Assembly: GCF_021533835.1 (NCBI RefSeq)
Contig: NZ_JAKFYQ010000001.1
Coordinates: 902,079 to 966,078, forward strand
Length of the DNA: 64,000 nt
From: Synechococcus sp. Nb3U1
GTDB taxonomy: Bacteria > Cyanobacteriota > Cyanobacteriia > Thermostichales > Thermostichaceae
Direction of reading: 5' to 3'
Shown: in pieces, positions 11,979 through 15,740 of the stretch
Numbering within the stretch: position 1 is the first letter of the stretch
How the letters are laid out: each line of letters begins with the position of its first letter
The notes under the pieces: generated by a model
Seen by the model: only the letters and a program-made list of their open reading frames with translations
Database searches by the model: none
Told to the model about the DNA's origin: nothing
Translations under genes and position numbers: made by a program

Positions 11979-12518
11979 ATGCAGATTCGACCCGCTACCC
12001 CAGCTGATGTGCCGATCATTTATAAGCTGATTTGTGCCCTGGCTGAGTATGAACAACTGAGCCATCTAGTGACTGGATCCGTAGCAGAGTTACAGCAACA
12101 TTTGTTCGGCCCTGAGGCGGTGGCGATGGTGTTGCTGGCTGAAGTGGAAGAACGTCCCGGATCCCCTGTAGGGTTTGCCCTCTATTTCCGTAGTTTTTCT
12201 ACGTTCCTCGCTCGACCAGGCATTTACTTGGAAGACCTGTTTGTATTGCCCGAGTTTCGCGGTCGCGGCATTGGCAAAGCGCTGTTGGTGCGGTTGGCGC
12301 AAGAGGCGGTGGCTAAGGGATACGGACGGCTGGAGTGGATGGTGCTGGATTGGAATGAACCGGCGATTGAATTTTACCGCCGGATGGGGGCTAAACAACA
12401 CACAGAGTGGATCTTGAACCGGGTTACAGGGGCTGATTTGGCAGCTCTAGCTCAGAGCCTGAACGAGTCACGCACCATCGCCCAGTTTGGCAAGGATCCT
12501 CGAACACACTCAAACTAA
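11979..12518 (+). CDS. GNAT family N-acetyltransferase (diamine acetyltransferase-like)
   Basis: A 179-residue acetyl-CoA-dependent acetyltransferase. The start MQIRPATPADVPIIYKLI, the acetyl-CoA loop LPEFRGRGIGKALL, and the end DWNEPAIEFYRRMGA fit the spermidine/spermine or thialysine acetyltransferase branch. I use the ATG at 11979; an upstream in-frame start would add 12 atypical residues. Its end overlaps the convergent fusion gene at 12510 by 9 bp. The real substrate (polyamine, amino acid or other amine) is not shown by the sequence. Confidence 0.83.
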   Translation: MQIRPATPADVPIIYKLICALAEYEQLSHLVTGSVAELQQHLFGPEAVAMVLLAEVEERPGSPVGFALYFRSFSTFLARPGIYLEDLFVLPEFRGRGIGKALLVRLAQEAVAKGYGRLEWMVLDWNEPAIEFYRRMGAKQHTEWILNRVTGADLAALAQSLNESRTIAQFGKDPRTHSN

Positions 12519-15500
12519 GATGGTAGAACCCAGCGACAGTTCTCTCAGAGATTGGCTGACCCTAGGCATCAGCGGATCCCATCCCAGCTCCTCCTGCTGC
12601 TGGCGAAACAACCGTACAGAGGGGTAGTAAGGAGAATCTTGTCGCTCTCTTAACCATCGCCAGTCACAGTTTTGGCACAAGAGGATCCAGGTCGGTTTGG
12701 CTAGGGCTCCGGCCAGATGGGCAACTGCCGTATCTACAGAAATGACCAGATCCAGTTGGCTGATCAAGGCCGCCGTATCGGCAAAATCTGTAATCCAGGG
12801 ATCCCAATTTTTGAGCTGAATATCTGAGGGTAGATCTGCCAGTTGTTTCACCTGTGGCCCTTTTTGTAGGCTGTGAAACTGGATCCCAGATACAGACAAA
12901 ATCGGTAGCCATTGTTTGAGATGACTGGAGCGATTGCGGTCGTTCCCCTGCGTGGGGCTACCTGCCCAACAGATGCCCACGTTGAGGATGGACGGTGATT
13001 TTTCAATCCTAAGAGAGCTCGGGATCTCTGGTACCTGCAAATAAGGCACTTGATTGGGGATTTGATCAAGGGAATGGATCCCTAGACACCAGGGCAAACT
13101 CATTAAGGGAGAATACACCTGAAAAGCCGTCAGGGGGATCTCTCCTGCCCCGTAAAGACCGCTCACCCCAGGGATCCCTTGAAACAAAGTTTTGAGGGGA
13201 TTCGGACAGACCAAGATCAGCTTTTGGCACCGCTGAGCTGCTAAGGGTAGGAAGCGAACAAACTGAATAGAATCTCCGGATCCCTGCTCCGTATGCACCA
13301 GCAAGGTTTGCTGAGAGATATCTTCCCCTTGCCAGCGGGGGTGAGGGCATTGAAAAGGTGTAAATTGGCTGGTTTGCCAGCGCCACTCAAACTCTTGCCA
13401 CCCCTGCTTCAGTTCCCCTTGCTTGAGCCAGGCCATTCCCAAGTTCATGTGGGCATCCGCAAATTGGGGATCCAACTGGATCGCCTTCTCATATTGCTGA
13501 ATGGCCTCAGCCAAACGGTTTTGCTTGACATAGATAAGCCCCAAGTAATTGTGGGCGCGTGGGTGACCTGGATCCTCTTGAATGGATAGACTCAGGTGAT
13601 ATTCAGCTTCCTGCCAGTGCTCCAAATCGCCACAGGTTACCCCCAAGTTGTAGCGGGCCACTTTCATCTGTGGATCCAGCTGTAAGCATCGTCGGAAGTA
13701 ATCGGCAGCTTTTTCCCACTCCCCTTGCACATGGGCTTCGTTACCTAAGGCCAGCAATCGATCCGGGTTGAAATCTTGCTCGAACTTTTGATGGAGATAG
13801 GCTTGTCTTTGGGCTATGATTTGATGGATTTGCTCAAAGTATGTCTGCTGCTCTGGGGGTATTGTCTCTTGAAAGGTACGCGGATCAGATTGAAATTTTT
13901 GGAGCTGCCGACTCAAATAATTGCCAGGATAATGCACATATTCTACAGTTTGCTCAGGAGTCCAGACAACGCTAAAAAATGTTGTCAACCATTGGATATA
14001 GGCTTTGCCTTCATCTTCATAATTTGATTCTCGAAAAGGCTTGTCAGCAGGAAAGCCCTCAATGAATTCATGGGCCTCACGTCGAATACATAGATTCAAA
14101 GGCAATACCTGTTTAATCTGGTCATACCAGTAGGGATGAAGGCTCAGCTGAATGCGGATCCCGGTCTTTACTGCTGCCGGATAGGACTTGGGCAGGCGAT
14201 AAATAGGATTGGCCAAGTTGGGATCCAAGGGTCGGTTAATAAGCTTCAGACAGGTCAAAACGTGATCTTCCAAAAACAAATTGCCTTCATCACAAAAGAA
14301 AATGGCCTGGGCCTGAGTGGCTTGTATGCCCGTATTTCTGGCTGCCCCTTGCCCTTGATGATTTGTATGCCGAATCAAACGGATCCTATTCTTTTGCTGG
14401 GCCCATTGATTTAGCAAATCCCAGGTATTGCCTTCTGAGGCATCGTCTACAATTACAATTTCGTGACTTATCTGTTCGGCAAAAGGATAGTTTTTATAAA
14501 AATGCTGAGTACTGGCTTCGATGCTTGTTAGGGTTTGCTCGATAATTGGCCAACCTTTCTTTTTGTTCTTTTTTTTATTGAATATCGGCACAACTACGGC
14601 AAAACTTTTAACTTCCGGTTCAGGTTCGGTTGTGGCTGTATCCATGCAAAAAACTGGCACTGGCTCATTGACCACTTGTTTGAGGGCTTCATCCGGCAGT
14701 ACATAGGTGGATCCAATCAGCTTCTCTTGCTCCGGATCATTAAACCGGGGATCCCCAAAGACCTCAGGGAAGCGGATCCCGGGCAGCACCTGCACCGAAA
14801 AAATTTCTTCAACACCCTCTTCAAATCGCAAAAAGGCCAGTGTCTCTCCGGTTTCAATGTGTATTACCCAAACCCCACAAATCCGTTCTGTTAAGCGCTG
14901 AGTCAACGGGATCCCACTGAACACCGCCGATTCTCGCACCTTAGAAAGCCCCACAAAGGCCAGTGGCCCGTAGAAGTCAACTCCACGGGTGAACCCCGGC
15001 ACAGTGGCAACCGCTTGCCAAGTACCCCTGTGCAAATCTACTCGAGCCAAACTGCCCTGCCCCGACTCCAGCACCCAAAGGCGATCTTGATACCAGCGAG
15101 GAGAGTGGGGCATCGATAACCCCTGCAAGAGAATCTTGTTGCTGCCGACATCCATCAAAATGCCGCCGTTAGCCTTGTTGGCCCGCCACCCTCCAGGGGT
15201 ATTGGTTGCCCCCAGGGCCGTGATGTAGCGGGGGATCCCGTTCACCAAGGCCAGCCCATTCAAATGACAGCGATCCGTCAGGTCATAGGCGGTCACAAAG
15301 GGGGGCCGCCAGCGAGGGACAAAGCTATGCTCAGTATCCACCGTGCACAGACAAGAAAAGCGCGTATTCAAAAACCACAAGCCCTCCTTTCCGTAGGCCA
15401 TCTCGTGAATGTCGATATCCCCGGTAATGTGGGTTTGGCGGGGGATGAAACAAGCATCATGTTTCCCCGGTGGATTCAACCTGTGCCCCACCGCTGGGAC

Positions 15501-15740
15501 ATTGCGCAGCTCCCAGATTTGGTACGCACAGCCTATTGCCAGCCTTTGTTCTGCAACCGCCAGGCCCATGGGCTTTTGATAGATGCGAAAGTGGGTGTTG
15601 AGCTTGTCTCCATCCGCCCGCACCACGATCAGCTTGCCCGCCTGATAAGTAGAGACCACCAGCGAGATCCCCAACTGATTGAGAATGGCCGGAAAGTGGG
15701 TGGTATGAACGCTGCGCAGCGGATTGATCAGCGGATCCAT
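12510..15740 (-). CDS. Fusion: TIGR03032-like domain, GT2, TPRs, GT9-like domain
   Basis: A 1076-residue multidomain protein with no signal peptide. Residues about 8-345 resemble the TIGR03032 beta-propeller-like family (STYQAGKLIV, GDIDIHEMAYG, CHLNGLALVNG). Residues about 375-640 are a family 2 glycosyltransferase (FAVVVPIF, IVIVDDASEGNTWD, GQGAARNTGI); the usual DXD is replaced by CDEGN. Residues about 690-810 are three to four TPRs (ARYNLGVTCGDLEHWQEAEY, AHNYLGLIYVKQ). Residues about 820-1065 resemble the TPR-linked family 9 glycosyltransferase fold (LVHTEQGSGDSIQFVRFLP, VISVDTAVAHLAGALAKPTW). It is probably involved in surface glycan or glycoprotein assembly, but that is inference. It is divergent from alanine dehydrogenase. 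Confidence 0.8.
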   Translation of the reverse strand: MDPLINPLRSVHTTHFPAILNQLGISLVVSTYQAGKLIVVRADGDKLNTHFRIYQKPMGLAVAEQRLAIGCAYQIWELRNVPAVGHRLNPPGKHDACFIPRQTHITGDIDIHEMAYGKEGLWFLNTRFSCLCTVDTEHSFVPRWRPPFVTAYDLTDRCHLNGLALVNGIPRYITALGATNTPGGWRANKANGGILMDVGSNKILLQGLSMPHSPRWYQDRLWVLESGQGSLARVDLHRGTWQAVATVPGFTRGVDFYGPLAFVGLSKVRESAVFSGIPLTQRLTERICGVWVIHIETGETLAFLRFEEGVEEIFSVQVLPGIRFPEVFGDPRFNDPEQEKLIGSTYVLPDEALKQVVNEPVPVFCMDTATTEPEPEVKSFAVVVPIFNKKKNKKKGWPIIEQTLTSIEASTQHFYKNYPFAEQISHEIVIVDDASEGNTWDLLNQWAQQKNRIRLIRHTNHQGQGAARNTGIQATQAQAIFFCDEGNLFLEDHVLTCLKLINRPLDPNLANPIYRLPKSYPAAVKTGIRIQLSLHPYWYDQIKQVLPLNLCIRREAHEFIEGFPADKPFRESNYEDEGKAYIQWLTTFFSVVWTPEQTVEYVHYPGNYLSRQLQKFQSDPRTFQETIPPEQQTYFEQIHQIIAQRQAYLHQKFEQDFNPDRLLALGNEAHVQGEWEKAADYFRRCLQLDPQMKVARYNLGVTCGDLEHWQEAEYHLSLSIQEDPGHPRAHNYLGLIYVKQNRLAEAIQQYEKAIQLDPQFADAHMNLGMAWLKQGELKQGWQEFEWRWQTSQFTPFQCPHPRWQGEDISQQTLLVHTEQGSGDSIQFVRFLPLAAQRCQKLILVCPNPLKTLFQGIPGVSGLYGAGEIPLTAFQVYSPLMSLPWCLGIHSLDQIPNQVPYLQVPEIPSSLRIEKSPSILNVGICWAGSPTQGNDRNRSSHLKQWLPILSVSGIQFHSLQKGPQVKQLADLPSDIQLKNWDPWITDFADTAALISQLDLVISVDTAVAHLAGALAKPTWILLCQNCDWRWLRERQDSPYYPSVRLFRQQQEELGWDPLMPRVSQSLRELSLGSTILV

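Follow-up and report, generated by a model that had tools for sequence, protein, structure and literature searches.

FlmG of Caulobacter O-glycosylates flagellin: according to PMC7591256, its TPR part binds the acceptor, and the TPR and glycosyltransferase (GT) parts are both required. HMW1C-like enzymes, according to PMC3983070, modify a giant exported adhesin while it is still in the cytoplasm. The locus described here encodes a protein with TPRs and two transferase folds, preceded by a domain of the DUF4915/TIGR03032 family. That family is widespread and has no stated function; in the literature searched we found no paper under the names TIGR03032, DUF4915, PF16261 or choice-of-anchor Q, and no assayed enzyme of the DUF4915 family.

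The gene lies in a window of 64,000 nucleotides (the whole stretch of Synechococcus sp. Nb3U1 DNA that was analysed; Table 1). Its reading frame starts with ATG, has no internal stop and yields an intact product in which the order, from N- to C-terminus, is DUF4915/TIGR03032 (a predicted six-bladed β-propeller), GT2, TPRs and a GT9-like GT-B domain. The intact frame, together with Pfam and NCBIfam domain searches, bears out the initial annotation of these parts as a single chain. The same annotation called the design unusual, and this holds in part: the four-part order is real, but it recurs in five proteins from four further genomes (49–60% identical over their length, one at 38%), five more have the same order lacking only GT2, and in cyanobacteria DUF4915 is commonly fused to enzymes that modify proteins. 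Among 61 TIGR03032 matches over cut-off, 23 occur in long frames, and all 23 are fused to enzymes of protein-modifying type: GT2-TPR-GT9 (3), TPR-GT9 (5), GNAT-TPR-GT41 (5), TPR-GT41 (4), TPR-GT41 on the other side (1), GNAT (4) and Asp/Arg hydroxylase-sulfotransferase (1).

Table 1. Features of the gene and its product (positions in the window; residue numbers of the protein)
Feature	Position	Strand	Product or basis
Whole gene, stop included	12510..15740	-	1076 aa
DUF4915/TIGR03032 domain, aa 15-327, predicted six-bladed β-propeller	14760..15698	-	Pfam, NCBIfam, model, structural matches
Propeller motif D156-R-C-H-L-N-G162, nearly invariant	15255..15275	-	conservation counts
Propeller motif M210-P-H-S-P-R215, nearly invariant	15096..15113	-	conservation counts
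GT2 (GT-A) domain, aa 371-655	13776..14630	-	Pfam, alignment with relatives, fold match
Lys-rich loop N388-KKKNKKKG396 after first GT2 strand, A-rich DNA	14553..14579	-	
Degenerate DxDD site, D484-E-G-N487 (relatives D-x-D-D)	14280..14291	-	alignment
Degenerate ED site, E575-D-E-G578 (relatives x-x-E-D)	14007..14018	-	alignment
TPR superhelix, aa 656-785	13386..13775	-	Pfam, model
GT9-like GT-B domain, aa 786-1076, conserved residues kept	12513..13385	-	Pfam, model, alignment
D1003-T-x-x-x-H1008 of GT-B domain, kept	12717..12734	-	alignment

The N-terminal domain, first described as TIGR03032-like, is a full member of that family, since it scores 428 bits against an NCBIfam cut-off of 251.5; the Pfam DUF4915 profile matches all of aa 15-327 (E 2e-131, 438 bits, cut-off 35). 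Conservation of its two propeller motifs was counted on 43 domains and, in a second count, on 58. An AlphaFold2 model of the domain (mean pLDDT 92.5) finds six-bladed YWTD propellers as its top structural matches (best Z 24.2, rmsd 2.7, 238 residues aligned), and YWTD, strictosidine synthase and arylsulfate sulfotransferase propellers all match at Z 20–24. A six-bladed β-propeller fold is predicted from these matches, which support the earlier description of the N-terminus as propeller-like. Among solved structures, none is credibly related to DUF4915 by sequence, the best being quinoprotein glucose dehydrogenase (E 0.51, 48 residues). We draw no parallel with arylsulfate sulfotransferase to claim a catalytic role for the propeller, the match being one of fold alone (Z about 20) with residues unmapped.

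At the other end of the chain, Pfam TPR families match about aa 663-785, and a GT-B domain follows, giving the layout of FlmG: TPRs, then a C-terminal GT-B, in a putatively soluble chain. The family match of the GT-B domain is weak: Glyco_transf_9 (PF01075) covers only 34 residues (aa 984-1017) at 24.8 bits, against a cut-off of 22, and in relatives it falls below cut-off (19.6 in L093, 20.3 in L087) or gives no match at E 0.001 (L086). The conserved residues are kept in a 28-row alignment: E818-Q-G-x-G-D, D997, W-R-W, and the D1003-T-x-x-x-H motif, which we take to be the sugar-nucleotide site of GT9 enzymes. By alignment, the GT-B domain is intact in its conserved residues. The model of the whole protein (pLDDT 92.3) has TPR-GT-B protein glycosyltransferases as its best Foldseek matches, namely SPINDLY and the T. 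terrenum and human O-GlcNAc transferases (OGT). PF13844 (GT41) is absent from the 22 Pfam families listed for the protein at E 0.1.

What might such proteins act upon? Giant FG-GAP/RTX open reading frames (at least 300 aa, with at least three FG-GAP-like or RTX-like motifs by pattern count) occur at 17 of 40 DUF4915 loci and at 1 of 40 control stretches; BLAST clustering finds giant proteins at 15 loci. The test loci were hand-picked from the TIGR03032 matches, long frames first, with L009 added and L100, which has no DUF4915, excluded, and several are shortened by contig ends; the controls are hand-chosen round-number positions in the same genomes. Choice-of-anchor Q genes adjoin TIGR03032 at L009, L090 and L091, and on plasmids of three phyla (Synechocystis PCC 6714, Planctomyces SH-PL62 and Diaphorobacter HDW4B), 75 plasmid records having matched, of which four were examined among the matches listed. 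In Synechocystis PCC 6714 the gene is of the DUF4915-TPR-GT9 type (7986-10229 of L175), and the choice-of-anchor Q protein next to it has 2459 aa. The adjacency frequency (5/40 loci, 0/40 controls) is not significant on its own (p 0.055). The six sites named have a candidate substrate gene beside the transferase, in the manner of HMW1C. The window gene does not: neither a choice-of-anchor Q nor an FG-GAP/RTX gene lies beside it or at the four other loci of the same architecture.

Within the window's own genome, FG-GAP and RTX proteins are ruled out as substrates by the lack of any PF13517 or PF00353 match, which leaves choice-of-anchor Q as the sole remaining candidate. Four choice-of-anchor Q matches occur there, none near the gene, and these proteins have signal-peptide-like starts and 17–22% Ser+Thr. 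Choice-of-anchor Q is present in 12 of the 14 genomes with a window-type DUF4915 (G011 and G015 lack it), and in the window's family the two are found together in the same three of eight genomes; five congeners of the window's organism have neither of the two families. Across 244 genomes sampled evenly over the phylum (the two surveys are assumed to share the same draw), choice-of-anchor Q occurs in 33 of 45 TIGR03032 genomes and 32 of 199 others; genome size and kinship confound this difference.

We propose, with about even confidence, that the window protein works in the cytoplasm as a soluble protein glycosyltransferase of several domains and acts on exported β-helical surface proteins, its GT2 domain being kept in a non-catalytic role. 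We infer that the acceptor is a protein, rather than a lipid or polysaccharide. This acceptor, a Ser/Asn-rich β-helical surface protein, would be held by the TPRs and the propeller together while still in the cytoplasm, and the C-terminal GT-B domain would transfer to it a sugar from a nucleotide sugar. In the window genome the acceptors would most likely be the choice-of-anchor Q proteins encoded elsewhere. In relatives, GT2 probably adds or extends a sugar by way of a metal-dependent D-x-D site; in the window copy, where that site is lost, it may persist for structure or binding, as a pseudo-glycosyltransferase.

An unlikely alternative is that the chain is a synthase of polysaccharide or glycolipid in which two transferase folds are combined, as in heparosan or chondroitin synthase, and whose TPRs and propeller organize a membrane complex. 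GT9 enzymes are classically lipopolysaccharide heptosyltransferases, which fits this idea, and the GT2 domain is nearest, by sequence and by fold, to the heparosan and chondroitin synthases. It belongs to GT2 by profile (PF00535, aa 382-521; E 9e-19, 68 bits, cut-off 23.3) and by GT-A fold, this part of the model matching heparosan synthase at Z 22.0 (rmsd 2.9, 222 residues) and RmlT at Z 21.1 (rmsd 4.0, 220 residues). A polysaccharide gene cluster is absent, however, around the window gene and its four relatives of the same architecture (L076, L077, L086 and L093); no neighbourhood is conserved among these five loci, whose only other BLAST match is to the opposite strand of the gene itself. 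DUF4915 is associated, moreover, with giant exported proteins and with parts of GNAT, Asp/Arg hydroxylase and sulfotransferase type, and the window GT2 lacks the metal site.

The loss of that site is peculiar to the window copy. The initial annotation had noticed CDEGN where D-x-D was expected and suspected altered function. CDEGN is indeed found there, at aa 483-487, and the suspicion is strengthened by the 15 other members of the GT2 subfamily compared, in every one of which positions D485, D486, D487 and D578 (window numbering) are retained or have a conservative match, giving D-x-D-D and E-D. The window protein reads D-E-G-N at the metal-binding motif and E-G at the E-D motif, which we take to hold the putative catalytic base. 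Eight of 65 GT2 columns invariant in five relatives are altered, five of them within these two motifs, and none of the eight is altered in the nearest relative, L077. The clustering has a post hoc hypergeometric probability of 1.3e-4 (7 motif columns) or 1.4e-3 (10). From the alignment, the window GT2 is very probably catalytically dead. That it might still work through a shifted site, D484-E485 and D576-E577 replacing the lost residues, seems improbable to us. Acidic residues do persist one or two positions off in both motifs, and the domain is not generally accelerated; but this shifted spelling occurs in none of the 15 relatives, and Gly stands here at the second Asp of D-x-D, which lines up with DSDD in the heparosan and chondroitin synthases.

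There is only a slim chance that the motif loss is an early sign of a gene becoming a pseudogene. Such decay could explain the Lys-rich loop, where A-tract expansion has left the only A8/T8 run in the window, the dip in G+C to 0.46 in the Lys-loop/GT2 part of the gene, and the gene's absence from the five congeners. The loop (KKKNKKKG, aa 389-396), recorded earlier as an insertion, is one only in part: it is three residues longer than in relatives, but a basic loop, N-x2-[RKQ][RK]G, is itself present in six of them. Its in-phase A-AAA-AAG would permit a programmed -1 frameshift by sequence; no downstream structure supports one there (z 0.12). Against pseudogene formation, all 1076 codons are open, and GT2 shows no general decay or acceleration, its relative-rate counts being equal (21:23, 21:24 and 26:21), no faster than in L077. 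Comparison with L077 gives pN 0.12 and pS 0.63 for DUF4915 (79% identical) and pN 0.24 and pS 0.79 for GT-B (66% identical), and away from the GT2 motifs the invariant columns are retained at the usual rate. Since dS is saturated for GT2 and GT-B, we claim no dN/dS ratio. An assembly or frameshift artefact, for which nothing was found in favour, can be dismissed: the five relatives of the same order come from independent assemblies, the altered motif codons are in-frame point differences, the stop or separate genes that would have betrayed a false fusion were not found for this architecture, and where a survey of relatives does find DUF4915 and its partner as separate, adjoining genes, in other lineages (L111; Diaphorobacter), this favours a functional link.

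More tentatively, and at somewhat less than even confidence, DUF4915 propellers may mark an undescribed cytoplasmic system, found across phyla, for the modification of exported surface proteins of giant size (choice-of-anchor Q, FG-GAP, cadherin-like and RTX), in which a substrate-holding or catalytic propeller has been recombined with GT9-like, GT2, GT41, GNAT, Asp/Arg hydroxylase and sulfotransferase parts; the window protein would be a member with a pseudoenzyme GT2. A widespread family would thereby gain a testable role, that of a partner to enzymes that modify giant surface proteins, and the window protein and its orthologue in genome G007 (L077) form a natural pair with which to study a dead GT2 within a working glycosyltransferase chain.

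Each of the known systems shares some of this design. Heparosan synthase 2 and chondroitin synthase likewise carry two GT domains per chain; they differ in making polysaccharide, in having neither TPRs nor propeller, and in keeping D-x-D intact in the aligned stretches. OGT and SPINDLY (GT41) have the TPR superhelix followed by GT-B; the window protein has only its weak GT9 match in place of GT41, which other DUF4915 fusions do carry. Members of the HMW1C family, like the DUF4915 loci, sit in some cases beside the substrate gene and in others alone, and they have an AAD domain instead of TPRs, belong to GT41, and are described with neither propeller nor GT2 (PMC3983070). FlmG, a single soluble polypeptide in which TPRs precede a C-terminal GT-B, is set apart, as described, by the lack of propeller and GT2, by its acceptor, flagellin, and by its sugar, pseudaminic acid (PMC7591256). 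On the best reading, it is FlmG, OGT and HMW1C that the window protein would appear to resemble in logic.

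The four modules lie in a single intact frame, with Pfam and NCBIfam matches (see table), and their order, DUF4915-GT2-TPR-GT9, recurs elsewhere, in four genomes with five such proteins between them: two tandem copies in G021 (locus L076), and one protein each in G007 (L077), G151 (L086) and G140 (L093). The single multi-domain protein of the initial annotation is confirmed by these observations, and no split pair for this architecture was seen among the loci compared; the fusion is real and recurrent. Its 'unusual design' is supported only in part, since it belongs, as a recurring variant, among the modular TPR-GT-B glycosyltransferases. 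The GT9 label depends on a match that is short and weak and is missing in some relatives. In the second of the tandem L076 genes, DUF4915 is strongly diverged (end branch 2.05) and the GT parts are not.

Coordinates and domain matches of the features discussed
Feature	Position (strand)	Score	Remarks
Window gene	12510-15740 (-)		stop-free ORF, 1076 aa
DUF4915/TIGR03032	aa 15-327	428-438 bits	Pfam and NCBIfam
GT2	aa 382-521	68 bits	Pfam
TPRs	between GT2 and GT9		Pfam
GT9	after TPRs	24.8 bits (weak; cut-off 22)	Pfam
Lys-loop tract	14553-14579 (-)		A-rich
GATGAAGGCAA, two copies	14281-14291 and 14005-14015 (-)		11-mer
Own-genome paralogue	L100:7572-10352 (-)		contig 3; 927 aa
Tandem four-part genes	L076:8687-11935 and 11990-15088 (-)		genome G021
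TIGR03032 fragments	G131 contig 24:253711-255412		contain stops

The gene stands alone in its surroundings. By reading of translations, its neighbours are an opposite-strand GNAT-like ORF, with a 9-base end overlap, and, at the gene's other side, an alanine-dehydrogenase-like ORF; sulfate- and nitrate-type ABC transporter genes lie further out. The host genome (3.49 Mb, 4 contigs), from a phylum that includes Synechocystis and Oscillatoria, also encodes a 615-aa TPR-GT9 protein and a paralogue with reordered modules, TPR-GT9-GT2, whose GT2 motif is intact. A choice-of-anchor Q gene lies ~22 kb from this paralogue on the same contig.

The suspicion that the GT2 domain is altered is supported by loss of catalytic-motif residues that the alignments find in all relatives compared. 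When the six four-part proteins were aligned, 65 columns were invariant in the five relatives, and the window protein deviates at eight: V386I, N461H, V472I, D485E, D486G, D487N, G575E and D578G. Five of these fall in two motifs; L077, the nearest relative, also deviates at eight among its 65, none in the motifs. Scanning 386 genomes, of which 12 had a match at E 1e-50, supplied nine more subfamily members; once these and the own-genome paralogue are included, C-D-[DGAS]-D-D and E-D are retained in 15/15 distinct relatives. The domain profile aligns the acidic residues with the D-S-D-D of heparosan and chondroitin synthases. In GT2 enzymes, the second Asp of this motif binds metal, and the Asp of E-D is the likely base. 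From these losses we deduce that the window's GT2 is probably catalytically inactive. Taken over its full length, the domain shows no acceleration, since relative-rate counts against L077 with three outgroups are near-equal (21:23, 21:24 and 26:21), and the motif codons carry in-frame point differences. Both degenerate sites share GATGAAGGCAA, which occurs exactly twice in the window (0.06 copies expected by shuffling), possibly through intragenic copying.

The remaining domains are, by residue conservation, intact. In a comparison with TPR-GT9 proteins (28 rows), the GT-B domain retains E818-Q-G-x-G-D823, Q826, R829, W925, S957-L-Q, D997, D1003-T-x-x-x-H1008 and W1027-R-W, and departs at four listed columns (F830, C924, A1014 and Y1038). 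Near-invariant DUF4915 residues are likewise present, including D95, T106, C130, D156, C158, H159, N161, H212, S213, R215, R252 and E312. AlphaFold2 models DUF4915 alone with a pLDDT of 92.5 and the whole protein with 92.3, at a pTM of 0.61, so that the domain arrangement is not established. The N-terminus is propeller-like, as first proposed: six-bladed YWTD, strictosidine-synthase and arylsulfate-sulfotransferase propellers match it (Z 20-24), a likeness of fold that shows no function. SPINDLY, OGTs and heparosan synthase are the best Foldseek matches of the whole model. The propeller's invariant polar residues would fit either substrate holding or a catalytic step of its own.

Relatives also have a basic loop at the place of the Lys-rich loop, which is longer here by three residues. 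Its DNA contains the sole A8/T8 run of the window and an in-phase A-AAA-AAG, a recognized class of -1 slippery sequence. The -1 frame terminates after 24 codons, and slippage would yield little beyond the propeller alone; no RNA structure was found downstream of the A-AAA-AAG.

The DUF4915 pattern at large is more interesting than the window fusion itself. TIGR03032 matches occur in 45/244 sampled genomes of the phylum, and among the 61 matches over cut-off, all 23 in frames of at least 500 aa are joined to a partner of transferase or hydroxylase type: GT2-TPR-GT9 (3), TPR-GT9 (5), GNAT-TPR-GT41 (5), TPR-GT41 (4, plus 1 placed before DUF4915), GNAT (4) and Asp/Arg hydroxylase plus sulfotransferase (1). 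The domain tree (58 domains) has two deep groups, one of 17 rows with the window and every GT9-type fusion, the other of 41 rows, in which the partner, where there is one, is GNAT or GT41. The window's domain pairs with that of L077 (support 100/99). Fusions with GT2 and without it (five further DUF4915-TPR-GT9 proteins, L087-L091) intermingle in the first group, which implies repeated gain or loss of GT2. Elsewhere the pieces are adjacent and separate: a DUF4915 gene beside a TPR-GT41 gene in L111, and, in Diaphorobacter, a hydroxylase-sulfotransferase gene immediately preceding TIGR03032, the same combination being fused in L095. From this Rosetta-stone evidence we infer that DUF4915 works jointly with protein-modifying enzymes. 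Giant frames of many tandem TPR-GT9 units (3553-4169 aa) occur in L010 and in genomes G012 and G025; the 4046-aa frame of L010 has eight GT9 matches.

Candidate substrates are exported surface proteins. Within stretches of at most 18 kb, ORFs of at least 300 aa with FG-GAP-like or RTX-like repeats occur in 17/40 DUF4915 loci versus 1/40 same-genome control stretches (Fisher p 2e-5); four such giants scanned with Pfam contain FG-GAP, cadherin-like and RTX repeats. Choice-of-anchor Q proteins (NF041518) adjoin TIGR03032 in 5/40 loci (L009, L090, L091, L097 and L099) versus 0/40 controls (p 0.055), and are neighbours in Synechocystis PCC 6714 (2459 aa, beside a DUF4915-TPR-GT9 protein), Planctomyces SH-PL62 (2495 aa) and Diaphorobacter HDW4B (877 aa). 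In G131, stop-containing TIGR03032 fragments adjoin a choice-of-anchor Q frame, a decayed copy with its neighbour retained. In the window's genome, RTX (PF00353) and FG-GAP_3 (PF13517) have no match and choice-of-anchor Q has four, none inside the window; the three of these ORFs that were examined begin like signal peptides and contain 17-22% Ser+Thr, and two carry 7-8 copies of NSTLSGNS. Within the window's family, G000, G006 and G007 contain both DUF4915 and choice-of-anchor Q, and five congeners contain neither (p 0.018). Choice-of-anchor Q occurs in 12/14 genomes with window-type DUF4915 (absent from G011 and G015) and, across the phylum sample, in 33/45 TIGR03032 genomes versus 32/199 others, uncontrolled for genome size and kinship. 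The five four-part loci (window, L076, L077, L086 and L093) all lack a candidate substrate gene nearby.

By analogy with FlmG and HMW1C, the window protein most likely glycosylates a beta-helical protein that is destined for export. The acceptor would be modified inside the cytoplasm, with GT-B as the sole domain expected to be catalytic, and the propeller would hold the substrate or catalyze a separate step. In FlmG, flagellin is bound by the TPR part and modified by the GT part (PMC7591256); for HMW1C, cytoplasmic glycosylation of a giant adhesin is described, by enzymes whose genes in some cases adjoin the substrate gene and in others are isolated (PMC3983070). An HMW1A/HMW1C-like arrangement is found on a plasmid of Pseudanabaena sp. 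PCC 7367 (L178), where a TPR protein matching the TPR-GT9 part is encoded two genes from a filamentous-hemagglutinin N-terminal-domain protein.
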